Assembly (NCBI RefSeq): GCF_033060595.1
Contig: NZ_CP133038.1
Location: forward strand, 1,054,001-1,118,000
Origin: Pyramidobacter sp. YE332
GTDB lineage: Bacteria > Synergistota > Synergistia > Synergistales > Dethiosulfovibrionaceae
DNA: 64,000 nt
Reading direction: 5' to 3'
Below the pieces are notes generated by a model. It did no database searches, had not been told where the DNA came from, and saw only the letters and a list, made by a program, of their open reading frames with translations. Shown here piece by piece: positions 20,121 to 61,516 of the stretch. The position numbers were made by a program, and so were the translations under genes. How positions within the stretch are numbered: the stretch's first letter is position 1; every line of letters starts with the position of its first letter.

Positions 20121-21460
20121 CAGGGCAATCGCTTACGAAAATCCACTCGAGGAAATTGCCATTAAGCTCACGAGAAGAAGAAAGCCGCAACGCAGAAAAG
20201 TAAGTTCATCCCAAGAAAGCCTCCCTGCGGTAGAATACAAAGAAACACCGAAAACGCCCCAAAACACCGACAGGAGGCACGAGAATGAACCAGACATTTC
20301 TGGAACTGCTGGCAGAAATTGAAGATTTCCGCACAGGCAACGCGATCCACTATCGGCTCCAGGATATCCTTCTGGTCAGCGTGCTGGCCGTGATCTGTAA
20401 CATGGATACCTATACGGAAATGGCCATGTTTGCCGATCATCAGAAGAAATATCTGGCGCCGTTCTGCGACTTCCGCCACGGCACCCCTTCTCACGATACC
20501 TTTGGCAAGGTGTTGAGCCGCCTCGATCCCCGTGTGTTGTCCGAACGCTTCAACGCCTGGATGAGCGAGCTGTACGTCCACCTGGGCAAGCTGGCGGAGT
20601 CAAGAGGCATGACCGTCGCCATCGACGGCAAGACCATATGCCGCAGCGGCAGTTCCGAACAGAAAGCCAGTCACGTGCTCACCGCTTTTGCCAGTCGGGC
20701 GCAGCTGGTCCTCGGTCAGATCAAGACCGACGAGAAGAGCAACGAGATCACGGCTATCCCCGAACTGCTGGATCTCTTTCAGGTCAAAGACACCGTCGTC
20801 ACCATCGACGCCATGGGGACGCAGAAGGACATCGCCGCCAAGATCATCGAAAAGGGCGGAGATTACGTCCTCGCCGTCAAAGGCAATCAGAAGAAACTGC
20901 ACGACGACATCATCTGGCACCTGCGCAGCGAAGCGCAGGACACAAGCACAAGAGAACTCAAAGCCAAAGGACAGTATGCCAGCACCCTGGAGAAGGATCA
21001 TGGGCGCATCGAGAGAAGAGAATGTTACCTTTCCAACGACCTGAGCTGGTTCGAAGGACTTGAAGACTGGCGAGGCATCACGGGCGTCGCCTGGATCCAC
21101 AACACCCGGAACGTCGATAACAAGACCAGCACTGAAGACCATTACTTCATCTACAGCCTGAAAGGAGCCCGGGCGCAAGACCTTCTGCGCATCAAGAGAG
21201 AGCACTGGGCGATCGAGAACAACTTACACTGGATGCTGGACATGGCCTTCAGGGAGGATGACTGTCGGGCGAGAGCGAAGAACGCGGCGGAAGTGATGAA
21301 CATTCTGCGAAAACTCGCTTTGCAGATGCTGAAGACCTGTGACACGTGCAAATGCGGGATGAGGAGCAAGCGCAAGCTCTGCGGGCTTGGCATTCCTACG
21401 GCTCTGCAGGTCTTGGGACTCGTCCCTACGGGGGTTCTTATTCCGTAAGCGATTGCCCTG
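20121..21460 (+). mobile_element. intact ISAs1-family insertion sequence
   Basis: 1340 bp bounded by perfect 17-bp terminal inverted repeats CAGGGCAATCGCTTACG (20121-20137 and, inverted, 21444-21460). It is flanked by a 10-bp direct target duplication TTCTGCCCGC (20111-20120 and 21461-21470). It carries one full-length transposase. Undamaged ends and duplication indicate a recent insertion. The target was a small hairpin, GCGGGC-TTTTCT-GCCCGC, upstream of the channel gene. Confidence 0.95.
20285..21448 (+). CDS. ISAs1 family transposase
   Basis: 387 residues. DDE-type transposase, also known as H-repeat-associated protein. The N-terminal DUF4338-like segment (LLAEIEDFRTGNAIHYRLQ) is followed by the catalytic region: D in VAIDGKTICRSG, D in VVTIDAMGTQ, and E in REHWAIENNLHWMLDMAFRED. 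ATG 20285 has ACAGGAGG upstream. The gene almost fills the element, ending 12 bp before the right inverted repeat. The second copy at 35139-36275 shares nearly identical N-terminal protein sequence but is broken. Confidence 0.95.
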   Translation: MNQTFLELLAEIEDFRTGNAIHYRLQDILLVSVLAVICNMDTYTEMAMFADHQKKYLAPFCDFRHGTPSHDTFGKVLSRLDPRVLSERFNAWMSELYVHLGKLAESRGMTVAIDGKTICRSGSSEQKASHVLTAFASRAQLVLGQIKTDEKSNEITAIPELLDLFQVKDTVVTIDAMGTQKDIAAKIIEKGGDYVLAVKGNQKKLHDDIIWHLRSEAQDTSTRELKAKGQYASTLEKDHGRIERRECYLSNDLSWFEGLEDWRGITGVAWIHNTRNVDNKTSTEDHYFIYSLKGARAQDLLRIKREHWAIENNLHWMLDMAFREDDCRARAKNAAEVMNILRKLALQMLKTCDTCKCGMRSKRKLCGLGIPTALQVLGLVPTGVLIP

Positions 21461-30505: not shown

Positions 30506-31873
30506 GTGATGGCTCGGAAAGAACTGGTATATGGAGTGGACGACGTTCCGTCATTGCCGATTTTGCTGCTGGCGGGCGCGCAGCACGTGCTCACGCTGTT
30601 CGGAGCGACGACGCTGGTGCCGCTGATTTTCGGCCCGGCGATGGGGATGACGCCGGCGCAGATCGGATTTTTCATTTCCTGCGTGTATTTCGCCATGGGA
30701 GTGTGCACGCTGATCCAGACCAGCCCGTTCGGTTCCGGGCTGCCGATCGTGCAGGGCTCGAGCTTCAGCTTCATCCCGCCGATCATGACGATCGTCGGCA
30801 TCTATTCGGCGCAGGGCACGAACGTGATCCTGCAGTACATCGGCGGGGCGCTGATCTCGGGGGGCGTGTGCCTGGTGCTGCTGGGGCAGTTCGGGCTGAT
30901 CGGACGGATCCGCCGCTTCGTCGGCCCGATCACGGTGGGCACGACGATCATGGCGATCGGCTTCTCGCTGGCTGGAACGGCCATCAGCGGCAACGCGGCC
31001 GGGTACTGGCCGGCCTCGCTGGCAGTGGTGGCGCTGATCTTCCTGTTCGGTCTGAAAGTCAAGGGGCGTTACGTCAACATCTTCTCGGTCCTTCTGAGCG
31101 TGGTCATCGTCTGGGGAGCGTGCTTCGCGCTGAGCAGTTCCGGCGTGTTCCAGCCGGGGCACCCCGTTTATATCGGTCTCGAGAACGTGAACGCGGCCAA
31201 GTGGTTCCAGTTCACGGGCTTTATGCCCTGGGGCATGCCGAAGTTCAGTCTGGTGGCGTTCGGCGCGATCTTGGCGGGCTTCTTTTCCGTCATCCTCGAG
31301 AGCATCGGCGACTATTTCAATGTCTGCAACGCGGCGGGACTGCCCGATCCGACGGAACAGCAGATCAGCCGGGGCATCCGCGCCGAGGGGCTGGGCTGCA
31401 TCTTCGGCGGCCTGACGGGGGCGGTGGCCTGCACGAGCTACACCGAGAACATCGGCCTGATCGGCCTGACGGGCGTGGCTTCGCGCTGGGTGGTGCGCGT
31501 CGGTGCGATCCTGTTGATCGGCATGAGCATGGTCGGCAAGTTCGGCGCGCTGGTGGCCACGCTGCCTGCGCCGATCATCGGCGGCTGTTACATCGCCCTG
31601 TTCGGCACCATCGGCGCGCTGGGCATCCAGGCGCTGACCCGCGCCGACATGCAGAAGCAGCGCAACGTGATGATCGTCGGCTTTTCCTTCCTGATGGCGC
31701 TGGGGCTGCCGGGCTGGGTGGAGGCGCAGAAGGAACTGTTCTTCGGCTGGGGCATTCCCGGCCAGATCCTCTGGGCGGTCGGCAAGACGTCGATGGCGGT
31801 GGCGGGCGTTTCGGCCTGTCTGCTGGACAATCTGATCCCCGGCACGCGCGAGGAGCGCGGCTTCAGGGACTGA
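30506..31873 (+). CDS. uracil/xanthine permease family (NCS2) transporter
   Basis: 455 residues, about 12-14 membrane helices. Proton-coupled uptake of xanthine, uric acid or uracil. The family motif region GSGLPIVQGSSFSFIPP and the later ILESIGDYFNVCNAAG and CTSYTENIGLIGLTGVASR (in place of the common QNNGVI) place it in the NCS2 family. The second motif is closer to the xanthine/urate branch, but substrate choice is uncertain. GTG 30506 or ATG 30509 may start it, and GGAGG at 30494-30498 serves both. It is flanked by terminators and stands alone. Confidence 0.88.
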   Translation: MMARKELVYGVDDVPSLPILLLAGAQHVLTLFGATTLVPLIFGPAMGMTPAQIGFFISCVYFAMGVCTLIQTSPFGSGLPIVQGSSFSFIPPIMTIVGIYSAQGTNVILQYIGGALISGGVCLVLLGQFGLIGRIRRFVGPITVGTTIMAIGFSLAGTAISGNAAGYWPASLAVVALIFLFGLKVKGRYVNIFSVLLSVVIVWGACFALSSSGVFQPGHPVYIGLENVNAAKWFQFTGFMPWGMPKFSLVAFGAILAGFFSVILESIGDYFNVCNAAGLPDPTEQQISRGIRAEGLGCIFGGLTGAVACTSYTENIGLIGLTGVASRWVVRVGAILLIGMSMVGKFGALVATLPAPIIGGCYIALFGTIGALGIQALTRADMQKQRNVMIVGFSFLMALGLPGWVEAQKELFFGWGIPGQILWAVGKTSMAVAGVSACLLDNLIPGTREERGFRD

Positions 31874-32063
31874 TCGCGATTTGAGAAGTTCTCGTTGAAA
31901 ATGCCGCACTGGAACCGTGCGGCAAAAAACATGCAGCGAATCCATGCGTTATTCACGCGGGGCGCTGTCAAAAGGCAAAAGTCTGAATCATTCAACAAAA
32001 AACGGTACCGGTACGGCGTAAAACGCAGCGCGAAACGGCAAAAGCTTTTTCGTGCCGCGTTTT

Positions 32064-32108
32064 TGTTCAAAGAAAACCCCCGGCTGTGCCGGGGGTTTTC
32101 TTTGAACA
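32064..32108. terminator. bidirectional terminator, 21-bp perfect stem
   Basis: Arms 32064-32084 and 32088-32108 are perfect complements with a 3-nt loop (TGT), containing AAAA and TTTT tracts. It lies between the permease and the convergent RES-protein gene. The 280-bp gap also holds a small GCCGCAC hairpin near 31902-31924 and nothing else. Confidence 0.8.
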
Positions 32109-32111
32109 AAA

Positions 32112-32140
32112 ATAGCGACCATTGTTTTGATGGTCGCTAT
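32112..32140. terminator. second hairpin of tandem terminator
   Basis: Arms 32112-32122 and 32130-32140 (ATAGCGACCAT and its complement), loop 7 nt. It directly follows the hairpin at 32064-32108 and is closest to the 3' end of the minus-strand AT-rich operon. Confidence 0.65.
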
Positions 32141-32154
32141 TATAAGCAAAAAAA

Positions 32155-33237
32155 CTATAGTTTTGTATAGGAATAGGAAATTGATTTTACGTCGTACACA
32201 CTTGTGTCAGTGCATTTGAAAAGAGAAGGGTTGAAAACTGCTAAATTAGCGCCATTTTTACACATCGTGCTTATGTATTCGATTCCATTATATCCTCTGC
32301 TGCGTATATAATCACTAATATACTGTGTCGGCAAATAATCGAGAGCGTTATCATTTCGCAGGGGTTTTGCAATTTCTTGTGAAATCATTTTAAGATGCTC
32401 AATGTTCATGGCATACTGCATAAAGTCAAATCCATAATCAATGCCAATAAACGGACTAATATGGTCAATACCTGCGAGGTTGATGACCTCAATGTCCTTT
32501 TGAAGTTTGAAACGACCAACTGTGACAAAGTCATATACACCTGCCCGGATTTCGTACAAGGTCGTTTCTGTTGAGTCAGAAAGATAAAGGATACTGATAC
32601 CCATTGGATTTACACGTCCGCCTTTTGCCTTGTTATCTGGAGGGGCCCCCATTTCTGTTTTCATAAATCCTTTTTCGTCAGGGCATATTCGTGAGCGATA
32701 CATTACTTCGCCTTTATGATGGAATTTTACAGCGCATCTCAGAAATATAAACAGCTTGTCCGTATTGATATAGTCGCCGTGAAAACGGTTCTTGCGCTTA
32801 ATTCCCTCGACGAAGTCACCCCAGCAATTATTCTTTAGAATTGAGTTTTCCTCTAAATAATCAAGATCCTGACACTGCTTAATAGCAACAGGGCTATCAA
32901 ATAATTCTGGCTGATCTTTATATCTTTTGGCGCAAATTGTGGTGATAAGCCGATATGCTCCATCAGGTTTTAAATTAAAAATTTGGCAGTTATTGCAAAG
33001 AATGTTCTTTATAAGATCTGTCTTCTCACGTGGAAAATCGGCAGATAAATCTGATACTGGGGTATAAATATCTAACAATCCATCAAAGAGCTCTGCTATA
33101 ATGGAATCTTTTCCAATTTCATATACATGGGTATTATGACTCCCGCAGAAATCGCAATCGCCAGTTGTTTTGTTCCCATCTATAATTGCTTTGATTTCTG
33201 TGTCAGCAAAACAATTACTGCAACAGAACATACGCAT
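32155..33237 (-). CDS. RES-domain protein with N-terminal zinc-ribbon/HEPN-RES-type region
   Basis: 360 residues. The N-terminus has paired cysteines (FCCSNC, then CDFC, later CNNC) typical of a zinc-binding region found ahead of RES domains. From about residue 175 a RES domain is visible. R lies in VMYRSRICP. A glycine- and Pro-rich GAPPDNKAKGGRVNPMGISI loop is followed by LYLSDSTETTLYEIRAG with the family Glu. GIEYISTMCKNGANLAVF may supply the family Ser. RES toxins degrade NAD+ in RES-Xre toxin-antitoxin pairs. No Xre antitoxin is adjacent here. The start overlaps the sce7725 stop by one base (TAATG), so the three genes form one operon. AT-rich, unlike its surroundings. Confidence 0.85.
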   Translation of the reverse strand: MRMFCCSNCFADTEIKAIIDGNKTTGDCDFCGSHNTHVYEIGKDSIIAELFDGLLDIYTPVSDLSADFPREKTDLIKNILCNNCQIFNLKPDGAYRLITTICAKRYKDQPELFDSPVAIKQCQDLDYLEENSILKNNCWGDFVEGIKRKNRFHGDYINTDKLFIFLRCAVKFHHKGEVMYRSRICPDEKGFMKTEMGAPPDNKAKGGRVNPMGISILYLSDSTETTLYEIRAGVYDFVTVGRFKLQKDIEVINLAGIDHISPFIGIDYGFDFMQYAMNIEHLKMISQEIAKPLRNDNALDYLPTQYISDYIRSRGYNGIEYISTMCKNGANLAVFNPSLFKCTDTSVYDVKSISYSYTKL

Positions 33238-34190
33238 TACCTCTCGCTAAGATATTTACCCATCAACTCCAGGTGGTGCATCAGCGAGAGTTTTTTTACT
33301 GTCCCGAGTCCTGGATAAGACTGTTGCTCGTGATGCTGTAAAAAAGTTTGGAGACCTGAGGTCATCTCAACAGGGTGCGGATCAGCATTGTACCACGCAG
33401 CTAGCTTTGATACTGCTTCGTAGAACTTCAAAGCAGGGTTTGTGATATCCTCGTTGGAATCCGAGACAAAATGCCTAACACGTAAAGTTTTGTCAGATGC
33501 AAAATACACTATATGAATAGCTACCGCATAGGGCGCAAATCCAGCTTCAAGGTACTCATTGCCAACTACTGAATAGTCAGAAAAACCGATAAAACCATCT
33601 TCTTTATAGAATAAATGGTCGTCAGAAAAGAATTCATCTTCGCTTTCTTGATAATCTGCGTTTCTACCTTGCCTTTCGAACTTGTCGTCAAGTAAAACTT
33701 TATGATGACGTACTTTACGCCTGAATACACTCTCATCCGGCATCAACACATAGCGGGGGACCTCTATTTCGAATGTGCTCTCGTATAGTTCTAAATAATC
33801 TCGATCAGTATTAATAACAAGCAAATCCGATTTATTAATGTTTTGTTCATCCCAAAACTCAAGCAAAACTTTTGCATTTTCCTGCATTATGAGTGACTTA
33901 ATTATAGTTGAATTCTCATATTGCTCTGAAAAACGCTGCTTATACGCAGCTTCTTTGGATTGTTTCTGAACATCTTGCCAATCAGACATAAAAGTACCCA
34001 CTGCGGGATTTCGTATAATCGAAATGGGATGTCCGATCTTAATAAACTCCGCCATCACATTTACAAGGGTAGGGGAGAGTTTTACAGGTTCAACAATGGG
34101 AGTAACGGAATCACCCAAGAGATCATTTGTCGCTAGCTCGCGTAGTGCAAGCAACTCGTATTGCCGGCCTCGAACATACGGGAAATACAT
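33237..34190 (-). CDS. sce7725 family protein
   Basis: 317 residues. The opening MYFPYVRGRQYELLALREL and the TPIVEPVKL segment are typical of the sce7725 family, which is regularly encoded next to sce7726. Biochemical function is not established. The fold hints at a TIM-barrel-like alternation (TPIVEPV, ISIIRNP, LLVINTDRD, RYVLMPD), similar to the so-called beta-family phage-related proteins, but this is inference. The ribosome site GGAGG lies in the last codons of the sce7726 gene, with a 3-bp gap. It is the middle gene of the operon. Confidence 0.85.
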   Translation of the reverse strand: MYFPYVRGRQYELLALRELATNDLLGDSVTPIVEPVKLSPTLVNVMAEFIKIGHPISIIRNPAVGTFMSDWQDVQKQSKEAAYKQRFSEQYENSTIIKSLIMQENAKVLLEFWDEQNINKSDLLVINTDRDYLELYESTFEIEVPRYVLMPDESVFRRKVRHHKVLLDDKFERQGRNADYQESEDEFFSDDHLFYKEDGFIGFSDYSVVGNEYLEAGFAPYAVAIHIVYFASDKTLRVRHFVSDSNEDITNPALKFYEAVSKLAAWYNADPHPVEMTSGLQTFLQHHEQQSYPGLGTVKKLSLMHHLELMGKYLSER

Positions 34191-34193
34191 AGA

Positions 34194-35051
34194 TTATCCT
34201 CCATATTTCTGATTTAAAAAGCCATTGATGGCTTGCCAGTCAGATGTCGATGGACTGGCAAAGTATATTAGGGATTTTAACTCGTATGGTATCTTCTTAA
34301 ATTCATTAACTCTAATTCTGTTGCGCTTCTTAAGCTGCTTAAGAGCCATCCTATAGGCGCGTACAATTGGAATCTGCGAGAACTGCTTTAGGCATTCGCC
34401 ATAATAGAACACCTGCGAAGCAACGGGGAGTTTGCCAAAATATTGTAACAATATGTTTTCATACTCGCGTTTGTGCAGTATCTTGAAAATGGCTGTATGA
34501 TCAAGTTGTGAGTTATTTTCTTCTGGTTCTTTCCGCAATTTTGTGCTGATTGTGTTCTGGGGAGTAAGTACATAAATACCTACCTGTGTACCTTGGAGAA
34601 TATTCACTGCACGTTCATATTGGCTTTCTGACGTGACAACACATACATGATTAAAAGCCTTAAAATAATCTCGCAACTGAGTGTCAAGACGATCAAAGGA
34701 GTCAAGATCTGTCTTTATCTCATATACAACTGCTTTGCCGTTAATTAAAATAAAATCAGCTTTCGATTTGCAAATTGGAACTTGTGTCAATGCTGTTGTA
34801 GTATTTACGCTGTGCTTCCCAAGCAAAAGTTTGTTGAGTAACGTGTTTTGATAGAAATATTCATTGCGGTAGGCTTTTGACATGAACTTATATATTTCAC
34901 TTATCAAGGCTCCGTTGTCTTTGTCCCTGGGGGCACTTACAAAACGTTGAATTACGGCTCCATAAGTGGTATCGTTAAAATTAGAATTAACCATGCTAAA
35001 GAGAAAATTTTGAGTAAAGAACCGATTTAAGATTAGATTATTTTCTGTCAA
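34194..35051 (-). CDS. sce7726 family protein (nuclease-like)
   Basis: 285 residues from TTG 35051, chosen because GGAGGGG lies about 10 bp upstream while the nearby ATG is followed at once by a stop. The central block SKADFILINGKAVVYEIKTDLDSFDRLDTQL contains a D and an E-x-K spaced as in PD-(D/E)xK nucleases (cite SKADFIL and YEIKTDLD). This is followed by YFKAFNHVCVVT. A helical C-terminal half completes the family pattern. First gene of the AT-rich operon. A TTGACT box with a weak TGTAGT lies about 60-85 bp upstream on the minus strand. The nuclease role is inferred from motif layout. Confidence 0.85.
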   Translation of the reverse strand: MTENNLILNRFFTQNFLFSMVNSNFNDTTYGAVIQRFVSAPRDKDNGALISEIYKFMSKAYRNEYFYQNTLLNKLLLGKHSVNTTTALTQVPICKSKADFILINGKAVVYEIKTDLDSFDRLDTQLRDYFKAFNHVCVVTSESQYERAVNILQGTQVGIYVLTPQNTISTKLRKEPEENNSQLDHTAIFKILHKREYENILLQYFGKLPVASQVFYYGECLKQFSQIPIVRAYRMALKQLKKRNRIRVNEFKKIPYELKSLIYFASPSTSDWQAINGFLNQKYGG

Positions 35052-35138
35052 ATCATGCCCCTCCCTTCGATTTAGTTACAACTACATTTTATTGTATCAT
35101 ATCAGTCAAGCTCTTGGGTTTCTGGTTATATTGGGGCC

Positions 35139-36275
35139 CAGAGCAATCGTTTACGAAACAAGCAAGCCCGTAGGCACGAGCCCCAAGACCTGCAGAGCCG
35201 TGGGGATGCCAAGCCCGCAGAGCTTTCGTTTGCTCCTCATCCCGCATTTGCACGTACTGCAGGTCTTCAGCATCTGTAAGGCGAGTTTCCGCAGAATATT
35301 CATCACTTCGGCCGCGTTCTTCGCTCTCGCTCGGCAGTCTTCAAGGTCTTCGAACTAGCTCAGGTCGTTGGAGAGGTAACATTCTCTTCTCTCGATGCGG
35401 CCATGATCCTTCTCCAGGGTGCTGGCATACTGTCCTTTGGCTTTGAGTTCTCTTGTGCTTGTGTCCTGAGCTTCGCTGCGCAGGTGCCAGATGATGTCGT
35501 CGTGCAGTTTCTTCTGATTTGCCTTTGACGGCGAGGACGTAATCTCCGCCCTTTTCGATGATCTTGGCGGCGATGTCCTTCTGCGTCCCCATGGCGTCGA
35601 TGGTGACGACGGTGTCTTTGACCTGAAAGAGATCCAGCAGTTCGGGGATGGCCGTGATCTCGTTGCTCTTCTCGTCGGTCTTGATCTGACCGAGGACCAG
35701 CTGCGCCCGACTGGCAAAAGCGGTGAGCACGTGACTGGCTTTCTGTTCGGAACTGCCGCTGCGGCATATGGTCTTGCCGTCGATGGCGACGGTCATGCCT
35801 CTTGACTCCGCCAGCTTGCCCAGGTGGACGCACAGCTCGCTCATCCAGGCGTTGAAGCGTTCGGACAACACGCGGGGATCGAGGCGGCTCAACACCTTGC
35901 CAAAGGTATCGTGAGAAGGGGTGCCGTGGCGGAAGTCGCAGAACGGTTCCAGATATTTCCTTTGATGATTGGCAAACATGGCCATTTCCGTGGAGGTATC
36001 CGTGTTGCAGATCACGGCCAGCACGCTGACCAGAAGGATATCCTGGAGCCGATAGTGGATCGCGTTGCCTGTGCGGAAGTCTTCGATTTCTGCCAGCAGT
36101 TCCAGAAATGTCTGGTTCATTCTCGTGCCTCCTGTCGAGGTTCTTGATGTTACTTTTATTCTACCGCAGGGAAGGCTGCTTGAGATTAAGAGAGACGTGC
36201 TCTTCTGGGAGACGTTCTTTCCTCACGGGCTTGCAGACGCTTTTCACGAGTCCTTTTTCGTAAGCGATTGTCCTG
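35139..36275 (-). pseudogene. decayed ISAs1-family element with broken transposase
   Basis: Minus-strand relative of the intact IS at 20121-21460. Its ends match with mismatches: CAGAGCAATCGTTTACG at 35139-35155 and, inverted, CAGGACAATCGCTTACG at 36259-36275. The transposase starts at ATG 36120 and is nearly identical for the first 190 residues or so. It then has an extra A near 35520 (GGCAAATCAG instead of GGCAATCAG). An internal deletion of about 190 bp near 35335-35345 fuses the middle to the C-terminal end. The region ahead of the start codon differs strongly from that of the intact copy. No clear target duplication. The element cannot transpose by itself. Confidence 0.9.
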
Positions 36276-36553
36276 GTATGGGGGATGCTCGTGGTGTCGG
36301 ACGGGGAATAGTTTCGTGAAGAAGAAAAGAGACATAATAACACAATATGAAATGTCCTGTTTTTCAAAGGCTTTTAGGCACAAGCCATAAAGGTTTGTGC
36401 AGGGATAGGGGCGTTTTTTTGCAGTTTCAAGTCCCTTGAATCAGCCAGAGAGATATGCTCCTCGGGGCAATCCTCTTCCTTTGTCATGCCGTAAATTTTA
36501 GGTGTCGAAGCGTTTTCACACATATTATACGTGCTATTTGCTCCGACCTTTGT
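36276..36553. other. intergenic AT-rich stretch, nothing firm
   Basis: This gap between the decayed IS and the exonuclease terminator holds only a 69-codon minus-strand frame (36374-36583) that starts inside a palindrome and has no recognisable product. A short stretch encoding CPEEHIS-like residues resembles the leader of the decayed IS (PEEHVS), suggesting leftover mobile DNA. Confidence 0.4.
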
Positions 36554-36624
36554 GGCTTTATAATAAATGTTAGTGGGAGGCAAACGATAATCGCTTGCCT
36601 CCCACTAACATTTATTATAAAGCC
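36554..36624. repeat. 71-bp perfect inverted repeat, probable terminator of exonuclease gene
   Basis: 30-bp perfect arms 36554-36583 and 36595-36624, loop ACGATAATCGC. The outer part is AT-rich (GGCTTTATAATAAATG), the inner part GC-rich. It lies 3 bp after the minus-strand exonuclease stop but lacks a proper T run on that strand. Confidence 0.65.
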
Positions 36625-36627
36625 TTT

Positions 36628-37218
36628 TTACCTTGCGAGCAGGCGGGCGGACGAGGCGTACTCGCGCGCGAACGCGGCGAAATCCATGTCGAGCCCGCGG
36701 ATCTTGCGCAGGATGCGCGCGAAGAGCTGAGCGCAGTAGCGGCAGTCGGTCAGCGCGCGGTGATGGCCGCCGGCGTCGAAGTCGAAGAAGCGGCTCAGGT
36801 TTTCCAGGCTGTAGCTGTTCAGTCCGGGAAAGGCCTGGCGGCTCAGCCTGAGCGTGTCGAAGACGGCGGGGCTGCTCCACTGGAGCCGCTGCCGCCGCAC
36901 GACGGGGTTGAGAAAGCTCATGTCGAACGGTGCGTTGTGCAGCACCAGCGGCGACGGTCCCACGAAGCTCACGAGCGCGGCGACGGCGTCGGCGGCGCGG
37001 GGCTGACCGCGGACCATGGCGTCGTCGATGCCGTGGATGGCGGAGACGTCGCGCGGGATGGGGCGCCCGGGATCGACCAGCATTTGAAAAGGCCGCTGCG
37101 AGCCATCGGGAAAGATTTTCAGAGCGGCGATCTCGACGATGCCGCACAAGGCGGGACTCAATCCGGTGGTTTCGATGTCGAGGGCGGTGAAGCCCGTTTC
37201 GGCGATGGAGAGAGGCAT
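36628..37218 (-). CDS. DnaQ-like 3'-5' exonuclease
   Basis: 196 residues, single DEDDh exonuclease domain. Exo I is FTALDIETTGLSP, Exo II is VLHNAPFDMSFL, and Exo III is HHRALTDCRYCAQL with the catalytic His, so all acidic residues are present. Similar stand-alone proteins act as proofreading subunits or in DNA repair or RNA processing. There is no polymerase or helicase domain attached. ATG 37218 is preceded by AAAGGAGG. Monocistronic, with a large palindrome immediately downstream. Confidence 0.88.
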   Translation of the reverse strand: MPLSIAETGFTALDIETTGLSPALCGIVEIAALKIFPDGSQRPFQMLVDPGRPIPRDVSAIHGIDDAMVRGQPRAADAVAALVSFVGPSPLVLHNAPFDMSFLNPVVRRQRLQWSSPAVFDTLRLSRQAFPGLNSYSLENLSRFFDFDAGGHHRALTDCRYCAQLFARILRKIRGLDMDFAAFAREYASSARLLAR

Positions 37219-60435: not shown

Positions 60436-60457
60436 ATGGTAAGATGATATGCAGATA
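60422..60457. promoter_or_regulatory. inverted repeat over fic promoter and ribosome site
   Basis: Perfect 11-bp arms TATCTGCATAT (60422-60432 and, inverted, 60447-60457), spacing 14 nt. It covers the -10 box, and its right arm abuts AGGAGA, the fic ribosome site. It shares TCTGCATAT with the palindrome at 60364-60407, giving four copies in 94 bp. Confidence 0.7.
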
Positions 60458-60469
60458 GGAGAAGATACA

Positions 60470-61516
60470 ATGAGACGATTCGATTATTCTTTCCTTAATA
60501 ATGGACTGTTGCCCGCAAAGTTTGTGAACCTTACGGCAAGCATTACGAGCCTGAAAACGATGGCCGGGGTTCGGAAAGAGGAATACGTCCGTGTTTTCAC
60601 GGAATTGGAAGCCATCGCGAAGGTACAATCGGTAAAGAGTTCCAATGCGATCGAGGGGATTGTTACCAGCGATGAACGTATCGCGGCGATCGTGAATCAG
60701 AATAGTGCACCGCTGAATCACACCGAAGCGGAGATCGCCGGGTACAGAGACGCCCTGAATGAAATACATCTGGGCTGCGAGCACATCAACTTCCGCCGGA
60801 GTGACATCTTGAGGCTGCATGAAATGCTTTTGTCGGCTGCCGGGCATGAATACGGCGGACGCTACAAGACGGATGACAACGTAATCATGGAAGTCGATGC
60901 GTTCGGGAACCGAAAAGTACGGTTTTCTCCTACTCCGGCCGCTGAAACGGAAGCCGCGATGGAACAGCTGGAACTTGCCTATCTGGACGCCTGCGGCGAC
61001 GCCAACGTCAATCAGCTCTTGTTGATCCCGTGCGTGATTCTGGATTTTCTGTGTATCCATCCCTTCCGAGACGGCAACGGAAGAATGTCGCGACTCTTAT
61101 CGCTCCTGCTGCTGTACAAAAGCGGTCATGACGTGGGGAAATATGTCTCTTTCGAGGAGCAGATCAACAATCGCAAGGCGTATTACTATGAGGCGCTGCG
61201 GCGATCTTCTGATGGCTGGCGCACAAATGAAAACACCTATTTCCCGTTTATCGAGAACTTCCTGTCCACTTTGTATATGTGCTATAAAGAGCTGGATAAG
61301 CGTTTCGCCGTAGTCCACGGGAGAAAAATCACCAAAAAGGCACGCATTGAATCGACCGTATTGAACAGCCTGACGCCGCTCTCCAAAGCCGAGATATGCA
61401 AGATCCTCCCGGACGTCAGCCCAACGACGGTGGAGGCCGTGTTGGGAGCCATGGTAAAAGCCGGTGCCATTAAACGCATTGGTGCTGGCAGGGCGTCGAG
61501 ATATGCAAAGGCGTAA
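60470..61516 (+). CDS. Fic family protein with N-terminal inhibitory motif
   Basis: 348 residues from ATG 60470. Fic domain with the complete active motif HPFRDGNGRMSR near residue 204, so AMP (or other NMP) transfer to target hydroxyls is expected. The N-terminal helix carries SSNAIEGI, the class II inhibitory motif (S/T)xxxE(G/N) that blocks ATP positioning. The C-terminus (NSLTPLSKAEICKILPDVSP onward) is a winged-helix domain, which may bind the repeated TCTGCATAT sites upstream. Such Fic-wHTH proteins often stand alone and self-regulate. Lower GC than the flanking DUF4428 copies suggests acquisition. Confidence 0.92.
   Translation: MRRFDYSFLNNGLLPAKFVNLTASITSLKTMAGVRKEEYVRVFTELEAIAKVQSVKSSNAIEGIVTSDERIAAIVNQNSAPLNHTEAEIAGYRDALNEIHLGCEHINFRRSDILRLHEMLLSAAGHEYGGRYKTDDNVIMEVDAFGNRKVRFSPTPAAETEAAMEQLELAYLDACGDANVNQLLLIPCVILDFLCIHPFRDGNGRMSRLLSLLLLYKSGHDVGKYVSFEEQINNRKAYYYEALRRSSDGWRTNENTYFPFIENFLSTLYMCYKELDKRFAVVHGRKITKKARIESTVLNSLTPLSKAEICKILPDVSPTTVEAVLGAMVKAGAIKRIGAGRASRYAKA

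Follow-up and report, generated by a model that had tools for sequence, protein, structure and literature searches.

The three-gene operon on the minus strand of the window (the whole 64,000-nucleotide stretch of Pyramidobacter sp. YE332 DNA that was analysed) is probably, at roughly two chances in three, a mobile anti-phage cassette, in which a core of the Beta/cII type is joined to a RES-domain NADase standing in the place of Gop. Its kinship with the P4 gop-beta-cII system and with PD-lambda-2 is the best evidence for a role in defence. This kinship was overlooked by the original prediction, whose gene facts, expected recurrence and conserved residues were nevertheless borne out.

Organization of the operon

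The operon lies on an AT-rich island, and the features discussed below are as follows (coordinates are those of the window).

31874..36627, no strand: island, missing from a same-species genome and from another congener; edges approximate
35341..36120, minus strand: dead, truncated ISAs1 transposase (NF033564, 7e-58), with a C-terminal remnant that continues towards 35150
35091..35099, minus strand: extended -10 promoter TGATACAAT, putatively the cassette's own
35058..35067, minus strand: ribosome-binding site AAGGGAGGGG, preceding the TTG start of sce7726 and kept in relatives
34194..35051, minus strand: sce7726 gene (cII-like), 285 aa, TTG start, first in transcription order
33237..34190, minus strand: sce7725 gene, 317 aa, second in transcription order
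32155..33237, minus strand: RES gene, 360 aa, third in transcription order
32111..32141, minus strand: intrinsic terminator after the RES gene, a strong hairpin with a 12-bp stem
32065..32107, no strand: second hairpin, GC-rich and symmetrical, read from the sequence

The description of the locus given by the original prediction agrees with what we found. The three minus-strand open reading frames are present from 35051 to 32155, with a 3-base gap between sce7726 and sce7725 and a 1-base overlap between sce7725 and RES. GC content is 38.8% across the triplet versus 63.7% in the flanks, and 36–39% at third codon positions of the three genes. The tandem terminator is made up of the hairpin at 32141–32111 and the GC-rich one immediately after it, which is possibly bidirectional, and the C-terminal remnant of the dead ISAs1 copy ends about 100 bases ahead of the TTG start. 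A TGnTAYAAT-like element was found at a similar distance in eight cassettes from three phyla, and no -35 element stands at canonical spacing from the extended -10 element of the window copy.

sce7726 and sce7725 are related to P4 cII and Beta

The first protein is a member of the sce7726 family (NCBIfam NF033832, 6.5e-56, 189 bits against a curated cut-off of 70 bits), and P4 cII belongs to the same family (2.5e-44, 151 bits). Consistent with this, sce7726 matches the PADLOC model "cll" at 1.2e-17; this is the model of P4 cII, and P4's own cII scores 3e-113 against it. The PD-(D/E)xK-like residues that had been attributed to the protein proved invariant: all 21 homologues compared, those from loci without RES among them, have the same D, E, K and Q as D99, E111-x-K113 and Q125, and these residues align with D43, E55, K57 and Q69 of P4 cII. 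A sequence search of solved structures returned no usable relative of sce7726 or sce7725, and fold comparison was used instead. The AF2 model of sce7726 (pLDDT 92) matched PD-(D/E)xK proteins, with 3dnx (SPO1766) as the best hit (Z 9.1), the restriction enzyme PaqCI at Z 8.3, and XisH and BamHI also among the matches. With its D...ExK...Q arrangement on a modelled alpha/beta nuclease core, sce7726 has the hallmarks of the PD-(D/E)xK superfamily and is nuclease-like, its activity being predicted. A match to NYN proteins (E 0.08) fell under the Pfam cut-off and was rejected.

The second protein is a member of the sce7725 family (NCBIfam NF033831, 1e-109, 367 bits against a curated cut-off of 60 bits). 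It gave no match above gathering score to Pfam, the Beta family PF14350 included, and no PADLOC model matches it, that for beta included. Profile alignment against relatives of P4 Beta (hhalign), on the other hand, covered 296 columns with a probability of 96.1% (P 3.6e-9), and column-shuffled, reversed and unrelated control profiles all stayed at or below 1.5%. By this profile evidence, sce7725 is a full-length remote homologue of P4 Beta. The two families also occur side by side, as an adjacent cII/sce7726 gene was present at all seven Beta loci that were taken as P4 or found via Beta. The AF2 model of sce7725 (pLDDT 89) predicts a TIM barrel, matching many unrelated barrels at Z of about 10, so the fold tells nothing of function. 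In a viral structure library its single confident match was an uncharacterised Gordonia phage protein; P4 Beta was not listed.

The RES protein is a predicted NAD+ phosphorylase

The third protein matches Pfam RES (PF08808) at 5.8e-16, with 59.3 bits against a gathering cut-off of 23.2. Among 27 RES proteins from triplets, R181, R183, R208, Y218, E229, Y301, S323 and N331 are each kept in at least 96%. A sequence search of solved structures gave weak matches only, in which S323 and N331 align directly with a serine and an asparagine of a solved RES protein; its numbering fits S184 and N193 of NatT, given a constant tag offset. NatT is a demonstrated NAD+/NADP+ phosphorylase in which R82 is required for toxicity (PMC11535050). 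Going by the order of RES motifs rather than by a solved alignment, R208 would be the counterpart of that arginine. We therefore predict, from these residues, that the RES protein is an NAD+ phosphorylase effector. Its N-terminus carries an invariant zinc-ribbon-like C6-x2-C9 ... C28-x2-C31 pattern. A match of this region to HEPN_RES_NTD1 was under the Pfam cut-off and the assignment was withheld. No PADLOC model matches the RES protein.

No open reading frame for an Xre, MbcA or ParS antitoxin adjoins RES in the island, and DNA comparison of the cassettes revealed no extra gene, Xre included, that is common to close relatives. This agrees with the absence of an Xre antitoxin noted by the original prediction.

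Comparison with known systems

Rousset et al. 2022 (PMC9122126) showed that P4 gop-beta-cII protects E. coli from lambda and P1 and that Gop is toxic when Beta is missing. Like the P4 system, the cassette comprises three genes on mobile elements, in which a protein of the cII family (NF033832) adjoins a full-length homologue of Beta. The two differ in their toxic part, which in P4 is Gop, a small hydrophobic protein with one predicted membrane stretch (by a simple hydropathy scan), and in the cassette RES; the PADLOC gop model matches none of the three cassette proteins. They differ also in layout, as P4 cII is convergent to gop-beta whereas sce7726 is first in a single operon, and in that sce7725 is a separate NCBI family that the PADLOC beta model does not recognise.

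According to Vassallo et al. 2022 (PMC9519451), PD-lambda-2 has a third component, described as related to a P4 antitoxin, that is required for defence against lambda without being the neutraliser of the system's toxin. This Beta-like component is homologous to sce7725, and P4 Beta itself matches the PD-lambda-2_C model. In PD-lambda-2, however, the toxic part is of the Xre-peptidase type, a HigB-like protein neutralises it, and there is no RES. Neither of these genes was found in the island, and the Beta homologue alone is common to both. Given the lack of Gop and of a direct match to PF14350, we regard the cassette as related to gop-beta-cII and PD-lambda-2 but not as a member of either.

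With the RES-Xre systems (MbcTA, ParTS and NatRT) the cassette shares the RES domain and the same active-site residues. It differs from them in having no Xre antitoxin, in tying RES to two sce proteins, and in the extra N-terminal zinc-ribbon-like domain. Among openly licensed papers, we found none on the combination of sce7726, sce7725 and RES; unpublished or subscription work may exist.

We also note that three rhizobial plasmid loci (L026, L028 and L031) carry DUF6932, ImmA/IrrE-HTH and Beta genes in a PD-lambda-2-like arrangement together with a convergent sce7726/cII gene; cII could be a component of PD-lambda-2 that has gone unrecognised. On an Azospirillum plasmid (L022), Beta and cII adjoin ImmA/IrrE and a sigma-70-like gene, with a DUF3644 gene nearby.

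The triplet recurs across phyla

In all seven close homologues, from genomes of Spirochaetota and Bacillota found via sce7725, gene content and gene order match those of the window triplet; L010 has its RES frame split in two. For six of the seven genomes, DNA similarity to the window cassette begins near the ribosome-binding site, or in one case shortly inside sce7726, and ends at the RES stop codon. The cassettes of close relatives all have 33–39% GC, and their host flanks 42 to 57%. Carriers made up 3 of 151 genomes in Synergistota (all three with the triplet), 9 of 398 in the phylum of Butyricicoccus (eight matches with the triplet, the ninth broken), 1 of 296 in the phylum of Spirochaetales and 18 of 5426 in E. 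coli, where the triplet was found on 18 chromosomes. In other hosts it was found on plasmids, prophages and ICEs. The same genes recurring in the same order across phyla place the triplet well beyond chance, and on this comparative evidence it is a mobile cassette, recurring in and transferred between unrelated bacteria.

Proposed mechanism and alternative explanations

In the mechanism that we propose, sce7726 and sce7725 would act jointly to sense or engage either phage nucleic acid or some change that the phage induces. Before infection, RES would be kept quiet by sce7725, alone or with sce7726; on infection it would be released and break down NAD+, and the cell would stop ahead of phage maturation, as in abortive infection. 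The two known relatives offer different precedents for the second gene: by analogy, P4 suggests that a Beta homologue restrains the toxin, and PD-lambda-2 suggests one that is needed for defence but not as a neutraliser. Because the Beta-like protein of PD-lambda-2 is not the neutraliser there, sce7725 need not be what restrains RES.

According to the main rival explanation, defence is the work of the sce7726-sce7725 pair itself, with a restriction-like nuclease and its TIM-barrel partner attacking phage DNA, and RES is only a fail-safe which kills if this first line fails or if the phage inhibits the pair. We consider this unlikely, though it draws on the distribution of RES. The original prediction was to be abandoned if RES were usually absent beside sce7725 and sce7726, and its proposal that the triplet recurs in other genomes held: RES comes after sce7725 at 27 of the 37 non-redundant loci, and no close relative lacks it. 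Among the other ten loci are copies from E. faecium and Listeria and several pairs in proteobacterial prophages, though one of the ten (L047) ends at a contig edge and is uninformative. As versions without RES exist, the idea of an obligate three-part system did not survive; RES is an add-on that the core can do without, and it may have a separate action. RES-free pairs in prophages keep the D/E/K/Q residues, and presence or absence of RES requires at least four state changes on the sce7725 tree, both as expected if the pair can defend by itself. Against this, close relatives are never without RES, and co-inheritance is tight, with pairwise distances among the three proteins correlating at r 0.95–0.98 across triplet loci. 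Moreover, P4 and PD-lambda-2 likewise couple a toxin to a Beta protein.

Among the RES-free loci, sce7725 is present without RES on an E. faecium plasmid (L011, 7306–8957) and on a Listeria contig (L017). At L011 a 229-aa protein, MmcB-like by motif, precedes sce7725 in place of sce7726, and a GNAT gene follows; here the nuclease part may possibly have been swapped.

Still less probable is a toxin-antitoxin or stabilisation module of three parts that would prevent the loss of mobile elements from the cell, with RES as toxin and the sce proteins as antitoxin; phage defence would then be secondary or absent. Type II toxins with RES domains are known, and the cassette is frequent on plasmids, ICEs and prophages, as such a module would be. 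However, every homologue retains the nuclease motif, the known relatives are anti-phage systems, some cassettes are chromosomal with no obvious element around them, and some neighbours are defence genes. The triplet adjoins Pycsar, ThsB-TIR and caspase genes on a Salmonella ICE; caspase and TIR genes, KwaB and an integrase in one E. coli setting, and KwaB (Kiwa) and a type I restriction gene in another; Olokun in Rhizobium; PDC-S21 on a viral contig; and RM genes in a Clostridiales MAG. Type IIG and type II RM are among the defence neighbours overall. The recurrence in defence islands that the original prediction asked about thus held for distant relatives (Pycsar, Kiwa, Olokun and RM) but not for the window's own locus. 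The window copy and most of its close relatives stand alone among housekeeping genes, so that the defence-island argument rests on the distant relatives.

An accidental or decaying set of three foreign genes with no joint function, which the AT-rich locus, the dead IS element alongside and the absence from a same-species genome might suggest, is very improbable and already contradicted by the recurrence, since genes, order and spacing are the same in at least three phyla, frames are intact, residues are conserved and the three proteins diverge in step.

For the anti-phage cassette that we favour, the kinship points to a likely role for two NCBI families whose function had been unknown, sce7725 and sce7726, and ties them to P4 gop-beta-cII and PD-lambda-2, two systems that are proven but little understood. 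It also suggests that a single sensor core is paired with various toxins, among them a RES NADase without an Xre antitoxin. Whether Beta/sce7725 and cII/sce7726 form a widespread, unrecognised sensor core of immunity with an exchangeable killing arm (Gop, an Xre-peptidase pair, a RES NADase or none), of which this cassette would be the first described NAD+-destroying, RES-armed form, is a more tentative proposition, to which we give slightly less than even odds. Since E. coli strains such as MS 115-1 and B1-56 carry related triplets, the question is directly testable in laboratory E. coli.

Island edges and surroundings

Genomes G078 (the same-species genome) and G001 match the window up to 31873–31910 and resume at 36628–36630, with about 217 unrelated bases between the matching flanks, and a third congener has the island at 94–96% DNA identity. 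In G078 the empty site (L078, C19 55355–55570) holds a filler of about 217 unrelated bases whose ends resemble imperfect inverted repeats (ATACTATTTCT ... AGAAATAGTAT); from these ends, it is possibly a small non-autonomous element. No Rfam family was found in the island and no tRNA attachment site within the 64-kb window. An intact-looking ISAs1 copy of 387 aa at 20285–21448 (plus strand) is near-identical to the dead copy, which has lost an internal stretch relative to it. Elsewhere in the window, 60449–61516 (plus strand), where GC is lower (~52%), encodes a Fic-family protein, identified by the motif HPFRDGNGRMSR.
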